Below, one piece after another: positions 4,155 to 25,119 of a stretch of 34,860 bases of DNA (positions are counted from its first letter, which is position 1; each line of letters begins with the position of its first letter). The notes beneath the pieces are model-generated. The model was not told the origin of the DNA and ran no database searches. It was given only the letters and a program-made list of their open reading frames with translations. Made by a program: the position numbers and the translations under genes. The stretch spans positions 1 through 34,860 of the IMG/VR virus record IMGVR_UViG_3300036850_000038; one strand, 5' to 3'. The stretch comes from a virus.

Positions 4155-4402
4155 GGCTGGTTCACCGTTCCCTTCGCCTTCACGGTCTCGGGCGTGGCGA
4201 CACCGTCGCCACCGGACTGCTGCTGTGACGGATATGCCTCGCGGAAGGCTGCCCGGACCTCCGAGGCCTTCGCCGCCGCGGCCTTGTACGCCGCGATGGT
4301 CTTCGGCGTGCGGTCGGCGTGCATCGCCTCGCGCGCCTTCTCGAGCGGCTCCATCGCTTCGGCCAGAGCGAGCTCGGCGCGCAGTCGTTCGACGTCGGAC
4401 AC
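4151..4402 (-). CDS. Small helical protein, first gene of the left-arm operon
   Basis: An 83-residue protein with a GTG start at 4402. It is preceded at good spacing by GAAGGAGA and by a promoter about 90-120 bases upstream. Residues 1-60 are rich in Ala, Glu, Arg and Lys and should form long helices (SDVERLRAELALAEAMEP). The last 20 residues are Gly/Gln/Pro-rich and probably flexible. It overlaps the next virion gene by four bases. I do not recognise a family. Its place suggests a chaperone or small virion component, which is inference. Confidence 0.65.
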   Translation of the reverse strand: MSDVERLRAELALAEAMEPLEKAREAMHADRTPKTIAAYKAAAAKASEVRAAFREAYPSQQQSGGDGVATPETVKAKGTVNQP

Positions 4403-4533
4403 GGCGATCTCCTTCGGTAGCTGGGTGTGGATGGTCGCGGAGGGCTAGATCAAGGGGTGTGCCTGGAGAATGGGCGGGGAAGTGCGACCGTATTTTGGCG
4501 TGCCCTTTCGCCCCAGTCAAGGGCTTTGGGCGG
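4403..4533 (-). promoter_or_regulatory. Promoter region for the left-arm (appendage) operon
   Basis: This gap separates the long early operon from the appendage genes. On the minus strand TTGACT (4515-4520) is followed after 17 bases by CAAAAT (4492-4497), a good sigma-70-type pair. The leader then runs about 85 bases to the GAAGGAGA ribosome site and the GTG at 4402. It implies timing independent of both the early operon and the right-arm structural operon. Promoter calls from sequence alone are tentative. Confidence 0.55.
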
Positions 4534-4713
4534 TTACCTCATCATCGCGCGGATCGCCGACGCCTCGAGCTCGCGGTCCAGTCGAGCCATATTCGTCCGC
4601 CCGATGACTTCCCACGGGCGGTCGGAACCGTTGCGGCGCAGATAGATGTAACAGGCGGGGCAGCGATGGAGACGTAGGCGTCGAATGCTCCCGCAGACCT
4701 CACACGTCCCCAC
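4534..4713 (-). CDS. Zinc-ribbon mini-protein
   Basis: I chose the GTG at 4713 (59 residues) because it begins right before a CxxC pair: residues CEVCG, then RCPACY about 12 residues on, then YLRRNGSDRPWE. This C-x2-C...C-x2-C plus RRxGxxRP layout recurs in small actinophage proteins and indicates one bound zinc. The C-terminal half is a basic/acidic helix. A DNA- or RNA-binding role is likely for the fold but not shown. It is the last gene before the 4403-4533 promoter gap. Confidence 0.6.
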   Translation of the reverse strand: MGTCEVCGSIRRLRLHRCPACYIYLRRNGSDRPWEVIGRTNMARLDRELEASAIRAMMR

Positions 4714-4729
4714 GGGACGCCAGTCTACC

Positions 4730-4912
4730 CTACGGCGCAGCGTTCTCTGAGTCCTTGCCCTTAGCGATAGCTGGTGCCCTGCCATATAGGTGCAGGAACA
4801 GACCCAATAGTGCGGCCTGCATCTTATCGTTGTCACCGTCCGCCCAGGCAAGACACGCATCTCGGGCCAACTCCTCGACTGTCACGGGATTTGGTCGCTG
4901 CGGCAGCATCAC
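4730..4912 (-). CDS. Small hypothetical protein
   Basis: About 60 residues, starting GTGATG; either the GTG at 4912 (GTGA overlap with the upstream stop) or the ATG at 4909 is possible. The middle is helical with the pattern VEELARDACLAWADGDNDKM. The C-terminal end is Lys/Gly/Asn-rich. No family is recognised. Tight coupling to its neighbours supports it as a real gene of the early operon. Confidence 0.55.
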   Translation of the reverse strand: MMLPQRPNPVTVEELARDACLAWADGDNDKMQAALLGLFLHLYGRAPAIAKGKDSENAAP

Positions 4913-6096: not shown

Positions 6097-6588
6097 TCAC
6101 GCGCACGACCAGGCGCCCCAGCCGGAGGCGTGAACCATCCGAACGGTGACGACGATCTGCGCCCTTGAGTTTCGCCAGCTCGACCATGGGCCGACGCGCC
6201 AGCCATCGGGCATCGCCCATGCCACGCGCGCCGACCACGCTGACGCCGCGTGCTGGAATAGGCCCAGGTAACTGCCGCCGTTGTTGGCGAGCCGATACCA
6301 GCCTGACTCGCACGATCCGACCTGGCGGGCTTTGTCGATGCCGCCGTCGATTGGGCCGAACTTGTTGACCACGCACTCGAGCGTTCGCTGCTCCTCGCGG
6401 TCGGTCCACGTCGCCTTGTCGACCCACTGATAACGACACGTCCTCTCCCTGATCTCCTGCGTTTGCGTCCCCGGCGCTGCTGCCAGAGAATCGATTAGCC
6501 GGGGGCTTGCGAGTCCTTCCGGTGGCCCGGCCGCCGCGATCCCTGTCACGAGAACGGCGGTCAGGGCCGTCATCACCACGCATTTCAC
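6097..6588 (-). CDS. Secreted lytic-transglycosylase/lysozyme-like protein
   Basis: I chose the GTG at 6588, five bases after AGGAGG, giving 163 residues; a GTG at 6594 overlaps the ribosome site. Residues 1-28 form a signal peptide (VVMTALTAVLVTGIAAAG). The C-terminal 80 residues resemble the Rpf/SLT-type lysozyme fold, with the catalytic-type Glu in GSCESGWYRL (about E94) and the downstream SYLGLFQH segment. It would cut peptidoglycan glycan strands outside the membrane. An export signal and an early-operon position make it unlike the endolysin at 19416-20051. A role in wall remodelling or superinfection exclusion is inference. Confidence 0.65.
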   Translation of the reverse strand: MKCVVMTALTAVLVTGIAAAGPPEGLASPRLIDSLAAAPGTQTQEIRERTCRYQWVDKATWTDREEQRTLECVVNKFGPIDGGIDKARQVGSCESGWYRLANNGGSYLGLFQHAASAWSARVAWAMPDGWRVGPWSSWRNSRAQIVVTVRMVHASGWGAWSCA

Positions 6589-6678
6589 TGGCACCTCCTG
6601 AGAGTTGGCCGCTTCGGCGGCGCGGTCAGGTTCCGGTCTGTTGCGACATCACCTCCCTTCGATGGTTACCGCGGCCCT
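6589..6678 (-). promoter_or_regulatory. Leader with an orphan extended Shine-Dalgarno site and a hairpin
   Basis: This is one of the few gaps in the early operon. On the minus strand GGGAGGTGAT (about 6648-6657) is nearly a full complement of the 16S rRNA 3' end. It is followed only by a 7-codon open frame (6626-6649, MSQQTGT). A hairpin GCCGC-CGAA-GCGGC (6608-6621) comes next, then AGGAGG and the GTG at 6588. It may tune translation or processing upstream of the secreted enzyme. Confidence 0.4.
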
Positions 6679-17138: not shown

Positions 17139-18077
17139 ATGCGCCATCTGTCAACGCTCGCCGATGTTCCCTACATGGAGCAGCGCACCTTCCCCGCGGT
17201 GCTCCGTCGGTTCGATCAGCACCTCGACGTTCTCGGCCGCGCCGATTCCACCCGTCGAAAGTACCGTTACGAGCTGCTCTGCTGGTGGGTCGACTACCTG
17301 TTCCCCGGCGGGCTCGACGTAGCGGACGTACGCTCCGGCCACGTAGAGGAGTACGTCGGCGCCCTACCCCGCCACGGGTCCAAGCGGAGCGACGCGCTGC
17401 GGGCACTCCGGGCGTTCATGGCCTGGGCCGTCGTCGAGGGGGAGCTCGACCGGAACCCCGTCGCCCATATCCCGGTCCCCCGGCCGAAAATCGCGCCAGC
17501 GCCGGACCTGTCCGACGACGACCTACGCCGTCTGCTCCGCGCGGCCTTCCACCGGGAGCGCCGACGAGGGTGGGCGATCCTGCTCTGCTACGTCACCGGC
17601 GCGCGTGTGGGTTCCCTCGTGGCAGCTCGGCCGGCCGACGTTCACCTTGGCCCTGATGCTCGGCTCGACCTGCTCGAGGCCAAGGGCGGGAAGCCGTACA
17701 GCGTGCCGCTTGAGCGCGCTGGGGTGATCGCGGCCGGGCATTTGAACCGCTTGTGCAGAGCAAATCCGAACGTAGGAAATGGGTCATATCGGCTCATCGG
17801 CGTCGGTGCCGAGCGGTTCCGCCAGTGGGTCCACGCCGCCGAGCAGGAGGCCGGCCTCGGCCGCGTCTGGCCACACCTCCTGCGACACGCCTTCCTCACT
17901 CGAGTCGCCCATGCCAAGGGCGTCAGCCCCGAGGAGGTGCGGAAGCTCGCCAACTGGTCCGACCTGTCGCAGTGGCCCCGTTACATCGCTGCCTCTGATC
18001 CCGTTGCACGGCAGGCTGTCGGAGCGGTCCTGGGTGGACATGCGAAAGCGCCCGCCGATCCTGCCCAGGGAGGATAA
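17139..18077 (+). CDS. int: Tyrosine recombinase integrase
   Basis: 312 residues from the ATG at 17139; an in-frame ATG at 17175 is an alternative and neither has a good ribosome site. Residues 17-110 form the core-binding helices. The catalytic set is R156 (TGARVGSL), K182 or K185 (EAKGGKPYSVPL), H246-x-x-R249 (PHLLRHAF), W273 in place of the usual His, and Y282 (WPRYIA). It inserts and excises the phage at an attachment site. No excisionase is recognised, although a small early helix-turn-helix or zinc protein could serve. Its stop lies inside the large hairpin at 18047-18097. Confidence 0.92.
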   Translation: MRHLSTLADVPYMEQRTFPAVLRRFDQHLDVLGRADSTRRKYRYELLCWWVDYLFPGGLDVADVRSGHVEEYVGALPRHGSKRSDALRALRAFMAWAVVEGELDRNPVAHIPVPRPKIAPAPDLSDDDLRRLLRAAFHRERRRGWAILLCYVTGARVGSLVAARPADVHLGPDARLDLLEAKGGKPYSVPLERAGVIAAGHLNRLCRANPNVGNGSYRLIGVGAERFRQWVHAAEQEAGLGRVWPHLLRHAFLTRVAHAKGVSPEEVRKLANWSDLSQWPRYIAASDPVARQAVGAVLGGHAKAPADPAQGG

Positions 18078-18115: not shown

Positions 18116-18301
18116 TCAGCGGTCTTTGAACCAGGTCACCACCGCCGGCAAGAGACCGACCAGGACCAGCAGCGCGGCGGCCTGATCCTCGGACAGGTCC
18201 AGGCCGAACAGCGCGAGCAGCGCCACGACGGCGGCGCCGATGCCTGTGGTCTCGGCGGGACGGCGCTTGACGGTCTGTGTGGTCTTGCTGACGACTTTCA
18301 T
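18116..18301 (-). CDS. Holin-like small membrane protein
   Basis: 61 residues from the ATG at 18301, after TTAGGAGG at ideal spacing; the longer frame lacks a site. The N-terminus is basic (MKVVSKTTQTVKRRP). Two hydrophobic segments follow: TGIGAAVVALLALFGL, and AAALLVLVGLLPAVVTWF, separated by DLSEDQ. A Lys/Asp/Arg end closes it. Small proteins of this kind at the end of phage lysis cassettes are typically holins or holin-like, forming the membrane lesion that releases endolysin. Confidence 0.7.
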   Translation of the reverse strand: MKVVSKTTQTVKRRPAETTGIGAAVVALLALFGLDLSEDQAAALLVLVGLLPAVVTWFKDR

Positions 18302-18309
18302 CGGGCCTC

Positions 18310-18888
18310 CTAACAGGGTTCGGGTGGTTTGGTCGGCGGTGGCGTGCACGCTGGGAATGGTTCGGTCACGGTGATGGCGATGGTCTCGGTGACAACCGGC
18401 GTTGGGGACGGCTCGACCTCCTCGACGATCTCCATCACGGTCATGAGCGAGGATTCGAGGGCGAGGGCCATCTCCGGTTCCTGGCTACGAAAGGTCTCCT
18501 CACATCCTTTGACCGCGTCGCCGGGATCCACGAAGCATTGATCGGCACCGGGTCCGCCGGAGACCCTCTCGCCGCCACGGTCGTCCACGGCGAACAGCCG
18601 GTCCTTGCCCCCGCCTCCTCGAACGACGTCCCGGCCACTACCGCCCACAGCGACGTCTCTGCCTCCCCCGGCCTTGAGGACGTCGCTACCGGCCTGGCCG
18701 TGGATGAAGTCCCTGCCCTGCAACGAGCAGAGGACATTGGTGCCCTTCGTCCCGGTCTTCACATCGCGCTCCGGCGTCCCGACCCAGGTGCAGCGCCCCG
18801 GCGCCCCAGGCGACGGCTCACCACCGGCAGCGACGATGCCGATGAGCGCCACTGTCAGGATGGCAAGCAGGATCAGGATCCGTCGCAC
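18310..18888 (-). CDS. Secreted RTX-like calcium-binding repeat protein
   Basis: 192 residues from the GTG at 18888, overlapping the upstream gene by 16 bases. Residues 1-22 are a signal peptide (ILILLAILTVALIGIVAAG). Residues 35-115 hold five nonapeptide-like units: GQAGSDVLK, GGGGRDVAV, GGSGRDVVR, GGGGKDRLF and GGPGADQCF. These resemble the GGxGxDxLx calcium-binding repeats of RTX proteins, which fold as a parallel beta-roll. A Thr/Val/Pro-rich C-terminal region ends PPTKPPEPC. Four Cys could form disulfides. It has no enzyme domain. Placement in a lysis cassette is unusual, and its role is unknown. Confidence 0.75.
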   Translation of the reverse strand: MRRILILLAILTVALIGIVAAGGEPSPGAPGRCTWVGTPERDVKTGTKGTNVLCSLQGRDFIHGQAGSDVLKAGGGRDVAVGGSGRDVVRGGGGKDRLFAVDDRGGERVSGGPGADQCFVDPGDAVKGCEETFRSQEPEMALALESSLMTVMEIVEEVEPSPTPVVTETIAITVTEPFPACTPPPTKPPEPC

Positions 18889-21137: not shown

Positions 21138-22349
21138 CTAACCGCTCACGAGCGTGGTCGTCTCGCCGAGCTCGGACTTGCCCACGACACCGAGCGTCCA
21201 CTGACCTGTCTGGAAGGTCGTCGACGAGAGCGCCCACGTGGTCATCCACGACGTAGGGGCGATGTCGTGGGCAATGCCCTCGATGACCGACGGCTGCTCG
21301 ATGACCCCGCCGGCCTGCGGCCGCTTGCGCACCAGGATGCGATCGTGGAGATCCTTGTTCAGAATGCGTGGCCACTGCGCGTCGTCGGGGCGGTCCAGCA
21401 CGATCGGCGAGATACGCAGCTCGAAATCCTTGTACTTGCCGAGCAAGGACTCGGCCCGTGCCAGCATCGCCGCCTGGGTCGTCAGCAGGGTGCTGACCGG
21501 CAGAGAGCGCGGGACGCGCGTCCGCGAGATGCTCGCCGAGTCACTGGCCGTCTGGGACGTGAGCGCCGGTGCCGACACGGTGACGACGTTCCACACGTTC
21601 GAGTCGTCGTAGGCGACCTGCACCTCGAGGTAGCCCTTCTCGGGGAGCTGGTCGCCCCAGACGTCGTTCGTCTCATCGAGCAGCACGGAGTGGGTCTGCG
21701 AGAAGAACGTAGCCGCACCGTCGGCCGCCATGAAGAACACGCCGCCCTCGCTCGTCGCAACGTCCTGCAGGTGGGTCAGCGCCGGGGCCGCCGACAGGGC
21801 GGACGCTTGCACGGTCATGTCGCCGGCGTCCACGTTGCGATCGGCAGCCGCCCATCCAAGCTCGTCGAGCACCGCGGCGACCCTTGCGCCCGAGAGCTGC
21901 TGGGGGAACGATGCCGTCAGATCGGACAGGTTGAACAGCTTGAACGCATCGACGGCCGTGACGTCTACCCAGGCATCGCCGGAGGGGCCGGGGCCGTATC
22001 GCTGCGGCCAGCCCTCCACGAACCCGAAGAACAGCGGGTAGGTCACCGCGCTCCACGTCGCCTCGATCAGCAGGGGGACCATCGGCCGGATGTCGGGGTA
22101 ATAGGGGCCGGTCAAGTTGAGCGGGTTGAACACGTCGTCACGGTTGGGCAGCCGGACGGTCGCCGTGCCCGCCTCCATGCGGTTCAGCTCATGCTGCCGG
22201 CCACGCCGGATCGAGACATGACGCCACGGGATCTCATCGAACGACGCGAAGCCGAGGATCGTGCTCGTACCGAGGATCGACTTCACCGAGTCGCCGAGGA
22301 TCCACCCGCTGCGGCCGATCGACACCGTGACCGTGGGGGCCATGCCCAT
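21138..22349 (-). CDS. Distal tail/hub minor tail protein
   Basis: 403 residues from the ATG at 22349, overlapping the tape-measure stop by one base (TGATG). Beta-strand-rich throughout, with IPWRHVSIRRGRQHELNRME and GTATVRLPNRDDVFNPLNLT near the start, and YPLFFGFVEGWPQRYGP following. This matches phage proteins that follow the tape measure and form the baseplate hub or distal tail ring. There is no enzymatic motif. Position is the main evidence. Confidence 0.72.
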   Translation of the reverse strand: MGMAPTVTVSIGRSGWILGDSVKSILGTSTILGFASFDEIPWRHVSIRRGRQHELNRMEAGTATVRLPNRDDVFNPLNLTGPYYPDIRPMVPLLIEATWSAVTYPLFFGFVEGWPQRYGPGPSGDAWVDVTAVDAFKLFNLSDLTASFPQQLSGARVAAVLDELGWAAADRNVDAGDMTVQASALSAAPALTHLQDVATSEGGVFFMAADGAATFFSQTHSVLLDETNDVWGDQLPEKGYLEVQVAYDDSNVWNVVTVSAPALTSQTASDSASISRTRVPRSLPVSTLLTTQAAMLARAESLLGKYKDFELRISPIVLDRPDDAQWPRILNKDLHDRILVRKRPQAGGVIEQPSVIEGIAHDIAPTSWMTTWALSSTTFQTGQWTLGVVGKSELGETTTLVSG

Positions 22350-24124
22350 CAGGCCCGGCCTCCGAAGATGTCGGGGTTTCGGTAGCCGGTCTTCACGAGT
22401 CCCTCGCGGACGGCCTCCACGAGGTCCCGCTCGGTGACGACGAAGCCAGCAACATTGACGATGACCGTCGTTCCCATGCCGCCGCCCTTGCCGAGCGGGA
22501 CCACGGCCTCGGGGCCGGCCTCACCGATCAGGGCAACAGTGGGACGCCTGACGATGCCGCCGTGCTGCAGAGCGCGGCCCGGTGTCCCCACCTTGTCGTA
22601 GAACGTCGTGACGTGGGTGTCGACCTTTTCGGGCACTCGATTCAGCTCGCGGATGTAGGACTGAATCTCTTGGAGCAGGTCGTTCACGACGCCCTTCTGG
22701 ATGCCGAAGTCGGCCGCGAGATCCTTAACCTTCTGCCGCACCGAGCGTGCCGTCTCGCCCGATTCGGCGAGCTCCTTGCCGTAGGACAGCACCGCATCCT
22801 CGAGCCCGATCTGCGCCTCGAGGGCGTCGAGGACGGCCGCCTCGTATGCCTTCGTGTCCTCACGGCCGGCGCGCTCGAGCCGGTTGAGCTCCTTCTGCGC
22901 CTCGGTCACGTCGTTCGCGGAGTCGACGATCCCGAGGTAGGAATCGGTGAGGGCCAGCGTGGCGAGGCGCTGCTCGCGTTGGGCGTCGGTCAATGCTCGC
23001 GTGGCATTCTCAGCGATCTTCTCCTTCTCGGCCGCCGTGTCCATCGCGTCGGCGAACTCCCCGCGGAATAGACTCGAGAGGTCACTGACGACGCCGTTCT
23101 GCGTCTCCCATGTATCCGTGGCGTGGTCGGAGATGTCGACCATGTTCCCGAGGATCGGGATCGTGTCGAGCACCACGTCGGCGAAGTCCCCGATGCCCGC
23201 ACCGCCACCGTCCGCGCTGTTCCTCACCTGCTGGATGTCCTCGGACATCTGCAGCAGCGGCAGGCTCGAGATCGCCTTGGCGGCGAGCTCGAAGATCGGC
23301 ACGAGCGTCAAGGCCGTGTCGGCCAGGCTCTCGAGCGCCGGGATAAGCGCCTCTCCGACCTGTTCCTGCACGTCGCCGAACTTCGACGACAGGATCGCCA
23401 ACTGACCGCCGAACGTATCGCCGGCCGCCTCGGCCGCCCCGCCGAACTCCTTGGTCAGCTCGGCGAGGATGACCTTCTGCGCGCCCATGAGGTCGCCCGA
23501 TTCGACGAGCGCCGCGATGGTGTCGCGCTGGGCCTGGGTGAACGACACGCCGACACGCCGCAGCGCGGTCATGCCCGTGATCGGGTCGTTCAACGCCTTG
23601 CCGAGCGAGAGGGTTGCTGAATGCAACTGCTCGGTCGACGGTACCGCGCCCTCGTTCAACGCAGTCGCCATGTCGAGGATCGCGCCCTGCGCCTGGTTGA
23701 AGATGTCGTTGCCCTTGCCGAGCTCGTTGTGCACGGCGCGGAACGTGAGCAACAGGTTCGATGATGCCTGGATCGCCTCATCGTCGACACCGGACAGGTC
23801 ACGGAGCCTCTGAGAGAGAGCGACGATCTGGGTCGCCGTGATGTTGGCCTCGCCGCCCGTCGACTTGAGGACGGCCTGGGTGTTCGCCATCACCTGCTCT
23901 GCCTCGATGAACGCTTTCACCGAGTCGGCACCGAACTTCACGATTGCCGCTGCCCCCGCGACCGCCGCGAGGGGAATCACAGAACCGAACGTCTGCTTGA
24001 ACGTTCCGCCGGTCTTGGCCGTGGTGCCCGCCATCGCGGTGTTCCCAGCGTTGATCTGGCCCTGGGCAGCCAGAACTGATTTGGCATCGGCCAAATACGT
24101 GATCGTCAATGCCCTGCCAGCCAC
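22349..24124 (-). CDS. Tape measure protein
   Basis: 591 residues from the GTG at 24124, with TAAGGAGG upstream. It begins with RALTITYLADAKSVLAAQG and then long helices. A membrane-like hydrophobic stretch IPLAAVAGAAAIVKFGADSV (about 50-70) may form the DNA-passage channel. Further on are INELRDLSG-like helical repeats with Ala/Leu/Glu heptads, and C-terminal GIVRRPTVALIGEAGPEAVV, the common tape-measure ending. At about 0.15 nm per residue its length predicts a tail near 90 nm. It is short for a siphovirus, and no peptidoglycan-degrading domain is seen. Confidence 0.88.
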   Translation of the reverse strand: MAGRALTITYLADAKSVLAAQGQINAGNTAMAGTTAKTGGTFKQTFGSVIPLAAVAGAAAIVKFGADSVKAFIEAEQVMANTQAVLKSTGGEANITATQIVALSQRLRDLSGVDDEAIQASSNLLLTFRAVHNELGKGNDIFNQAQGAILDMATALNEGAVPSTEQLHSATLSLGKALNDPITGMTALRRVGVSFTQAQRDTIAALVESGDLMGAQKVILAELTKEFGGAAEAAGDTFGGQLAILSSKFGDVQEQVGEALIPALESLADTALTLVPIFELAAKAISSLPLLQMSEDIQQVRNSADGGGAGIGDFADVVLDTIPILGNMVDISDHATDTWETQNGVVSDLSSLFRGEFADAMDTAAEKEKIAENATRALTDAQREQRLATLALTDSYLGIVDSANDVTEAQKELNRLERAGREDTKAYEAAVLDALEAQIGLEDAVLSYGKELAESGETARSVRQKVKDLAADFGIQKGVVNDLLQEIQSYIRELNRVPEKVDTHVTTFYDKVGTPGRALQHGGIVRRPTVALIGEAGPEAVVPLGKGGGMGTTVIVNVAGFVVTERDLVEAVREGLVKTGYRNPDIFGGRA

Positions 24125-24139
24125 GTATCCTCCTTAGGC

Positions 24140-24241
24140 ATGAACGTGCGAAAGAGCGAGCTGGTGATCCCGTGGTGGGCGCTCACGCTGGCCCTGCTAC
24201 TCGTCGGCCTCAGCGGCCTGGTGATCGGCCTGCGGGCCTAG
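24140..24241 (+). CDS. Possible 33-residue membrane peptide on the opposite strand
   Basis: This is the only plus-strand frame in the right arm that resembles a gene. ATG at 24140 to TAG at 24241 encodes MNVRKSEL, then a membrane segment VIPWWALTLALLLVGLSGLV, then IGLRA. Third codon positions are almost all G or C, as in real genes here. It lies in a 113-base gap between minus-strand genes. No strong ribosome site precedes it, since the purine-rich site there is the tape-measure signal on the other strand. It could be chance. Confidence 0.35.
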   Translation: MNVRKSELVIPWWALTLALLLVGLSGLVIGLRA

Positions 24242-24639
24242 TGGAACCAGCCGTAGGCTGAGACGATCTCGCGGAGCTCGTTCTCGACGATGAGCTGGAT
24301 CACGGTCTCCTGCTGATCGACAGCCCGCCCGGCGAATCGCGGCGGTGCGCCGTAACGGTTGAACCCCGAGAACTTTCCGAACCGTCCCCATTCAGCCCCG
24401 CCTGCGTACGGCACCGACGAAACCACGCTCGCCGTCGTGCCGCGCACGCTCACCTTGTAGCCGCCGGCCAGAGCACCCGATAGACGCGGTGCGAGCGCCG
24501 ATGCCTGCGCAACGACTGGTATCCCGGCCTTCTTGAGCGCCAGGGGAATCTCGCGCGGATAGGCCGCCGCCGCGATCCGAACCGCCGCCCGAAACTCGTT
24601 GAGCCCCTGGATGACGATCCCATTGCCTTGACTAGCCAC
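24238..24639 (-). CDS. HK97-gp10-like virion protein
   Basis: 133 residues from the GTG at 24639, overlapping the chaperone stop by eight bases. A helical start (FRAAVRIAAAAYPREIPLAL) leads to LKKAGIPVVAQASALAPRLSG, then a beta region GALAGGYKVSVRG and ASVVSSVPYAGGAEWGRFG. The PYAGGxEWG box is characteristic of HK97-gp10-type neck/tail-completion proteins. These usually sit before the tail tube gene, so its place between the chaperones and the tape measure is unusual. Confidence 0.65.
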   Translation of the reverse strand: MASQGNGIVIQGLNEFRAAVRIAAAAYPREIPLALKKAGIPVVAQASALAPRLSGALAGGYKVSVRGTTASVVSSVPYAGGAEWGRFGKFSGFNRYGAPPRFAGRAVDQQETVIQLIVENELREIVSAYGWFH

Positions 24640-25119
24640 GCCGCCGTTCCTCCATCGCGCGTTCGAGCTGCTCTATCTGACCGTTGTGGTACTCGACGAG
24701 CGCCTGCTGGATCTCCACCGGCGCCTGCAGGATGTCGTTGGGCGCCAGGTGCAGGTCGGCCGCTAGGACGGCGACGTCCCAGGCAGCGGACTCGGGTCCG
24801 TAGGGTCCACGGGGCCATCCAGCTTCTCGAGCTTGACCTCCTCGACGTTCTCGAGGAAGTCGTCGAACCCACCGACCGGGCACTCGCCACGGGTCAGCGT
24901 GCGCCAGCAGAAGTAGGCGGTCTGCTCCTCGCGGAGGGTTCGCACCTCCGACGTCGCCTCGCCGTCGGCATCGATCTTGCGCGATTCGCGCCGGAGCTCG
25001 ACGACCGACACGTCGTAGATGCGCTCGAACATGATTCGATCGGACAGCGCCATGTAGACCCCGACGGCCTCGTGCTTCGTGCCATCGAGCATCACCGCGA
25101 CCACACGCATCGACGTCAC
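24632..25119 (-). CDS. Tail assembly chaperone GT fusion (-1 frameshift)
   Basis: The G frame (24763-25119) can be extended by a -1 shift into the frame ending at 24632. The best slip point is GGC-CCC at 24811-24816, where the A-site tRNA can re-pair with CCC. The extended protein would be about 162 residues, adding ESAAWDVAVLAADLHLAPND and a charged Arg/Glu end. Gene order (tube, G, GT, tape measure) and the overlapping frames are typical of the conserved tail-chaperone frameshift. The exact slip site is inferred. Confidence 0.65.
24763..25119 (-). CDS. Tail assembly chaperone G
   Basis: 118 residues from the GTG at 25119 (GTGA overlap). The front has RVVAVMLDGTKHEAVGVYMA, then VVELRRESRKIDADGE, and the end is acidic and Pro-rich (VDPTDPSPLPGTSPS). 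In long-tailed phages the protein just before the tape measure assists tail tube assembly and is mostly made unshifted, with a minority shifted to GT. Position and the overlapping -1 frame are the basis. Confidence 0.7.
   Translation of the reverse strand: MTSMRVVAVMLDGTKHEAVGVYMALSDRIMFERIYDVSVVELRRESRKIDADGEATSEVRTLREEQTAYFCWRTLTRGECPVGGFDDFLENVEEVKLEKLDGPVDPTDPSPLPGTSPS
24811..24816 (-). promoter_or_regulatory. Candidate -1 ribosomal frameshift site
   Basis: On the minus strand the zero-frame codons GGC CCC sit here inside the chaperone overlap. Slipping back one base keeps full CCC pairing for the A-site tRNA and enters the open frame that ends at 24632. It is not a classic XXXYYYZ heptamer, so a single-tRNA slip is the likely mechanism. 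Confidence 0.45.

Follow-up and report, generated by a model that had tools for sequence, protein, structure and literature searches.

A reverse-strand membrane microprotein gene in the tail module of soil siphophages, a candidate superinfection-exclusion cassette

Does a frame of only 33 codons, which lies in the tail module of a virus on the strand opposite to the late genes, encode a protein, and what could such a protein do there? The frame belongs to a virus record of IMG/VR with 34,860 bases (the whole stretch that was analysed, hereafter the window). Genes for the major head protein, the portal, the prohead protease and the terminase are present in it, as are an exonuclease gene, a methyltransferase gene and an HTH gene of repressor-like type. 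By gene content the phage, a soil phage, is temperate. The features needed for the argument are the following:

24140..24241, plus strand: predicted gene of a 33-residue single-span membrane microprotein (read here as a reverse moron), ATG at 24140, TAG at 24239-24241
24126..24131, plus strand: TATCCT, a -10-like box of a possible leaderless promoter, 8 nt before the ATG
24238..24639, minus strand: tail-completion (HK97-gp10-like) gene, assigned by PHROG match (phrog_5), convergent neighbour
22349..24124, minus strand: tape-measure protein gene, GTG start with AGGAGG, divergent neighbour
24238..24241, no strand: CTAG palindrome, a 4-nt overlap made up of the stop codons (TAG) of both convergent genes
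17139..18077, plus strand: tyrosine integrase (PF00589, phrog_1), on the strand of the microprotein gene

The frame, its surroundings and its relatives

The initial annotation had described a 33-codon mini-ORF with a membrane segment and near-uniform G/C third positions, and both its coordinates and these properties were confirmed: the highest 19-residue Kyte-Doolittle mean of the product (MNVRKSELVIPWWALTLALLLVGLSGLVIGLRA) is 2.28, and G or C occupies the third position in 31 of the 33 codons. AF2 predicted one helix (residues 12-32, mean pLDDT 83.5), which adjoins PWW and exhibits an invariant G23xxG26xxxG30 face. The frame is located in a 113-nt gap between the tail-completion gene and the tape-measure gene. 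Its placement between chaperone and tape-measure genes in the only sizeable gap of the tail module had to be corrected in part: the tape-measure side and the gap are real, but the upstream neighbour is the tail-completion gene, with chaperone-like ORFs one gene beyond, and the late module has further gaps of 130 and 66 nt, both further upstream. Nor is the plus strand otherwise silent, as it carries the integrase. The chaperone-like ORFs (118 and 83 aa, 24632-25119, minus strand) overlap and resemble a frameshifted tail-assembly chaperone pair.

That the frame arose by chance in a high-GC genome would be consistent with the dinucleotide shuffles of the 113-nt gap, 64% of which contained some plus-strand ORF of at least 28 codons. 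However, none of the 2000 shuffles had such an ORF as hydrophobic as the 33-residue one, so that the bare open frame is not improbable by chance while the membrane segment is. Only five ORFs of 25-130 aa with a 19-residue mean of at least 1.9 occur in the whole window, two of them on the plus strand. The homologues described below, together with a permutation test, refuted the chance explanation, which we regard as practically negligible.

Homologues in the same frame and of nearly equal length were found in four further IMG/VR contigs (L002, L088, L090 and L117). L088 and L090 were recovered with a degenerate pattern and L117 via relatives of the L088 major tail protein; four other contigs that matched the pattern (L091, L092, L101 and L131) were rejected, as the family is not encoded there. 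The five members share the motif VRxxE--IPxWA-xLALLxVGxxGLxxGL and 17 invariant alignment positions. The nearest relative of the window is L002 (tape measure 72% and tail completion 80% identical), whose copy starts with GTG and agrees with that of the window in frame, length and CTAG ending, the latter being identical also in L004. The comparison of synonymous with non-synonymous change, which had been named as a check by the initial annotation, was carried out for all six pairs among the window, L002, L088 and L090 and gave pN values of 0.10-0.23, pS values of 0.37-0.66 and dN/dS ratios of 0.13-0.41. When the 23 substitutions between the window and L002 were placed randomly, at most eight residue changes without a stop were obtained in 0.18% of the trials (permutation P 0.0018). 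With frame and length kept and synonymous change in excess, the sequences argue that 24140-24241 is almost certainly a real protein-coding gene, as had been suspected.

A profile of the five members matched four of 12 records, namely three records from which it had been built and L133, which harbors a distant sixth copy (E 1.2e-11). This homologue (4613-4762, minus strand, 49 aa) has an extra C-terminal tail, adjoins replication genes on their strand and is preceded by a ribosome site; it is a possible source of the tail-module cassette. A second small membrane ORF (4369-4509, minus strand) follows it. As a separate observation, L133 (716-1204, minus strand) and the window (6097-6594, minus strand), otherwise different phages, both encode an exported-looking protein with a near-identical N-terminal stretch, for which the window version gave no PHROG match.

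Searches of the microprotein against PHROGs, Pfam, NCBIfam and PADLOC yielded no match at the thresholds used, only weak ones with E values of 0.08-0.2. No match was obtained for the family (two versions and that of L133) in 50,697 phage records or for the L133 version in plasmids. A GTDB scan for the host with the tail-completion alignment found nothing, and the single match of a pattern scan was judged to be chance; the putative leaderless genes and distant Microbacterium and Gordonia tape measures merely hint at Actinobacteria.

An optional insert at two sites

Morons are phage cargo genes that are recognized as an extra gene between genes otherwise adjacent, with an own promoter, an own terminator and prophage expression independent of the late genes. 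The slot at the tape-measure gene is termed site A. Its upstream gene is present in 12 contigs, of which four (window, L002, L003 and L004) have the slot open by 113-159 nt and two end too early. The remaining six (L005, L006, L099, L127, L129 and L130) have no gap there, as the tail-completion gene ends in overlap or direct contact with the tape-measure start. An extra gene between genes that abut in relatives was hence found at site A (six abutting, four with insert, two cut off, n = 12).

In L088, L090 and L117 the microprotein gene resides at another place, site B, next to where the major tail gene ends; there too it lies in reverse and converges on the upstream gene. On its other side follows the chaperone gene in L088 and L090, while the L117 contig stops before reaching it. 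Window and L088 share 74% DNA identity in the mini-gene, but the proteins compared are only 26% (major tail) and 34% (tape measure, over 157 residues) identical. Judged from these comparisons the microprotein gene is a travelling insert, the same gene being found at a different tail-module site despite tail proteins of at most 34% identity. Of 11 loci with this region, three break off within the major tail gene. In the other eight contigs, which were examined for site B, the slot measures at least 154 nt in six, counted as open, and 72-77 nt in two, which are nearly closed.

Across both sites, every one of the ten open slots contained a membrane ORF on the opposite strand, the weakest being that of L115 with a 19-residue mean of 1.75, and none contained one on the same strand. 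Shuffles of each open slot produced an opposite-strand membrane ORF in 0-2% and a same-strand one in 0-1% of cases. Contigs in which the insert is plainly absent (L127, L129, L130, L099, L113 and L114) show, as far as sequence can tell, that the microprotein gene is optional. It is very probable that we are dealing with an inserted reverse cassette.

The cargo of the ten open slots comprises about four kinds, all on the opposite strand:

Five slots: the microprotein family of the window
L003 and L004: a 43-aa protein (alignment z 4.3)
L115: a 49-aa protein
L119 5002-5247 (minus) and L116 5068-5367 (minus): two related proteins of 81 and 99 aa, weakly like DUF4190

The last two have several hydrophobic segments and occupy a slot that elsewhere holds a microprotein of 33-37 aa; their match to DUF4190 (PF13828) is weak and below the curated cut-off, and the window protein differs from it. 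In L006, where site A is closed, a 38-aa reverse membrane ORF (4273-4389, minus strand) whose start is preceded by TAGGAT at a distance of 6 nt lies upstream of the chaperone gene, and reverse membrane ORFs upstream of the tape-measure gene also occur in L009 (4702-4842, minus strand) and L047 (4669-4899, minus strand). Across 80 loci with tape-measure relatives, most of which have only a central tape-measure domain in common, reverse membrane ORFs were not generally overrepresented close to the start of the tape-measure gene; besides those of L009 and L047 the reverse ORFs there were mostly long antisense ORFs. Consequently, the docking proposal made below is restricted to two lineages.

Expression signals and phage lifestyle

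The TATCCT box in front of the microprotein gene is at the same time the complement of the tape-measure Shine-Dalgarno stretch and is therefore ambiguous from the window alone. A standard scan of the window revealed no sigma-70 promoter, and a standard scan of 23950-24450 revealed no terminator-like site; an own terminator, as expected of a moron, was not found, and the microprotein stop overlaps that of the next gene. A TANNNT box ending 6-8 nt before the start was found for five of eight reverse mini-genes (window, L002, L003, L004 and L090), compared with five of 1131 ORF first starts in the same records, among which some mini-genes may themselves be counted. These statistics treat the genes as independent, although three pairs are related (window with L002, L088 with L090, L003 with L004), and for L002 and L003, later also for L117, the start was picked among several in frame; restriction to first-in-frame starts leaves three of eight (window, L004 and L090). 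L006 and L117 have the box in addition, and L088, L115 and L119 have ribosome-site-like stretches instead. The overlap of the box with the complement of the tape-measure ribosome site concerns site A.

PMC3160421 takes TANNNT about 12 bp upstream as the mark of leaderless genes, which are common in Actinobacteria, and counted from the first T the distance is 12-14 bp in the window, L002, L003, L004 and L090. At site B a promoter-like sequence, TTGC[GA][TG]-16/18-TANNGT, occurs in five of the six open slots (it is absent in L119) and in neither of the two closed ones, and it precedes three different cargo types. The TANNNT box before several mini-genes suggests a leaderless mRNA, and the microprotein gene probably has its own promoter. 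Independently of the slots, three similar-looking late-strand proteins of 66-69 aa (L053 9133-9342, L060 9668-9868, L082 8819-9019 (+)) combine an N-terminal half rich in charges with a single membrane helix close to the C-terminus. Each has TANNNT 6-7 nt before the start, and they possibly constitute a leaderless holin-like family.

The promoter-like boxes, together with the convergent arrangement and the overlap with the end of the upstream late gene, would also fit an element that works as antisense RNA or by transcription interference, with the peptide being incidental. The initial annotation had considered an antisense RNA site over the tape-measure start. This is not supported, since a transcript that begins at 24140 would proceed in the direction opposite to the tape-measure start (24124) and it is the protein that is conserved; moreover, the slot proteins differ and yet always have membrane helices. 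We consider an RNA-based function very doubtful.

The integrase lies on the mini-gene strand in all four contigs with an open site A (window, L002, L003 and L004). However, it is also opposite to the late genes in the closed-slot contigs L127 and L130, so its orientation reflects the direction of the lysogeny side and has no specific link to the mini-gene. Neither a tyrosine nor a serine integrase was detected in three contigs with a site-B insert, L088 of 35 kb and L116 and L119 of 33 kb each, which may be partial. These integrase-less contigs are a real weakness of a role restricted to lysogens and would favour a small membrane protein for lytic growth (early membrane remodelling, take-over of a host membrane protein, or a helper of injection or tail assembly) that in some phages just happens to be placed in reverse. 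The L133 copy among the replication genes, on their strand and with a ribosome site, points in the same direction. Nevertheless, all members but one of the six run backwards within the late operon, where late transcription would be directed against them, and the optional insertion speaks against an assembly role, which makes a lytic role unlikely.

Possible functions and known systems

Whereas the gene and cassette readings are well supported, we infer the function. Overall, the best reading is a reverse moron whose small membrane product most likely serves in superinfection exclusion, a reading for and against which we see about equal weight. In such a scheme a small independent cassette would have been inserted so as to run counter to the late operon. 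Its mRNA, probably leaderless, would start from a short promoter that coincides with the tape-measure start or lies next to it, and the single helix would be placed in the cytoplasmic membrane. Because transcription of the microprotein gene would collide with that of the late genes, it would most likely be expressed from the prophage, while the late genes are silent and in the orientation that it shares with the integrase gene. The microprotein would then block the tape-measure or DNA-injection step of incoming siphophages.

Among known systems HK97 gp15 comes closest. It is a superinfection exclusion moron, small (62 aa) and hydrophobic (19-residue mean 2.43), and is encoded between the chaperone and tape-measure genes; the microprotein is likewise small, hydrophobic and encoded upstream of the tape measure. 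Unlike the microprotein, gp15 is on the late-gene strand, has an annotated terminator and belongs to a phage of a Gram-negative host, and BLASTP gave no alignment between the two at E 100 or better, so that homology was not found. The term 'reverse moron' is already used in the HK97 annotation for gp23, which is encoded among the tail genes, the kind being hence already known; gp23 is larger and sits at another site.

According to PMC10883804, gp15 acts at DNA injection and its block is bypassed by exchange of the tail tube or tape measure. TP-J34 Ltp and Tuc2009 Sie2009 are comparable as they are described to be prophage-made, membrane-attached blockers of siphophage DNA injection. Ltp is described in PMC3952083 as a lipoprotein whose block is defeated by tape-measure changes (also PMC10883804); unlike the microprotein it is encoded in the lysogeny module and not in the tail module. 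In these reports the tape measure is the target for Ltp and the implied one for gp15 (PMC10883804, PMC3952083), and PMC13190303 reports a membrane nuclease associated with tape-measure proteins. A single prophage-expressed membrane protein of mycobacteriophage Charlie is reported to exclude Che9c DNA injection (PMC6426606).

Exclusion is favoured on account of these reported prophage membrane proteins that block siphophage DNA injection, the tape-measure targets and the matching position of HK97 gp15. As site B is away from the tape-measure gene, adjacency to this gene is no constant clue to the target, and the L133 homologue on the replication-gene strand does not point to exclusion. We thus put forward the exclusion function of the microprotein as a serious yet tentative proposal.

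The initial annotation had named a toxin, a holin or a regulator. Toxin or regulator are possible; a membrane-acting toxin, or one half of a type I style toxin-antitoxin pair, would agree with a short hydrophobic peptide, and the convergent overlap could allow antisense control by the late mRNA. As no antitoxin RNA, partner gene or family match was identified for the microprotein, this explanation appears improbable. Size and single helix match the small class of holins, but a holin, antiholin or lysis modulator is disfavoured, as no lysis cassette was seen close to the family, the other occupants of its slots are membrane proteins unrelated to it, and 18116-18349 (minus strand) offers another small membrane ORF; given that the gene is also optional, we deem a lysis function quite improbable.

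The exclusion reading can be extended to the slot itself, which would be a docking place, as in other phages of these lineages it holds other small membrane proteins, still reversed. A standing tail-module 'dock' in soil siphophages of two related tail lineages, made of an opposite-strand and often leaderless promoter behind which different small membrane proteins are swapped, could amount to a rapidly exchanged repertoire of injection-blocking exclusion factors that is coupled to the tail genes guarded against. We regard this as conceivable but doubtful. Neither the microprotein family nor the docking pattern was found in the published literature, as searched largely at the level of abstract openings.

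Phage annotation can easily miss ORFs of 33 codons, above all when they lie on the 'wrong' strand with respect to a structural operon. The microprotein gene is conserved and mobile and marks a place of membrane-protein exchange between phages. If the exchanged proteins are exclusion factors, the combination of reverse strand, TANNNT near the start, membrane helix and tail-gene gap would provide a search rule for anti-phage microproteins, and the relatives with empty sites would serve as natural controls.
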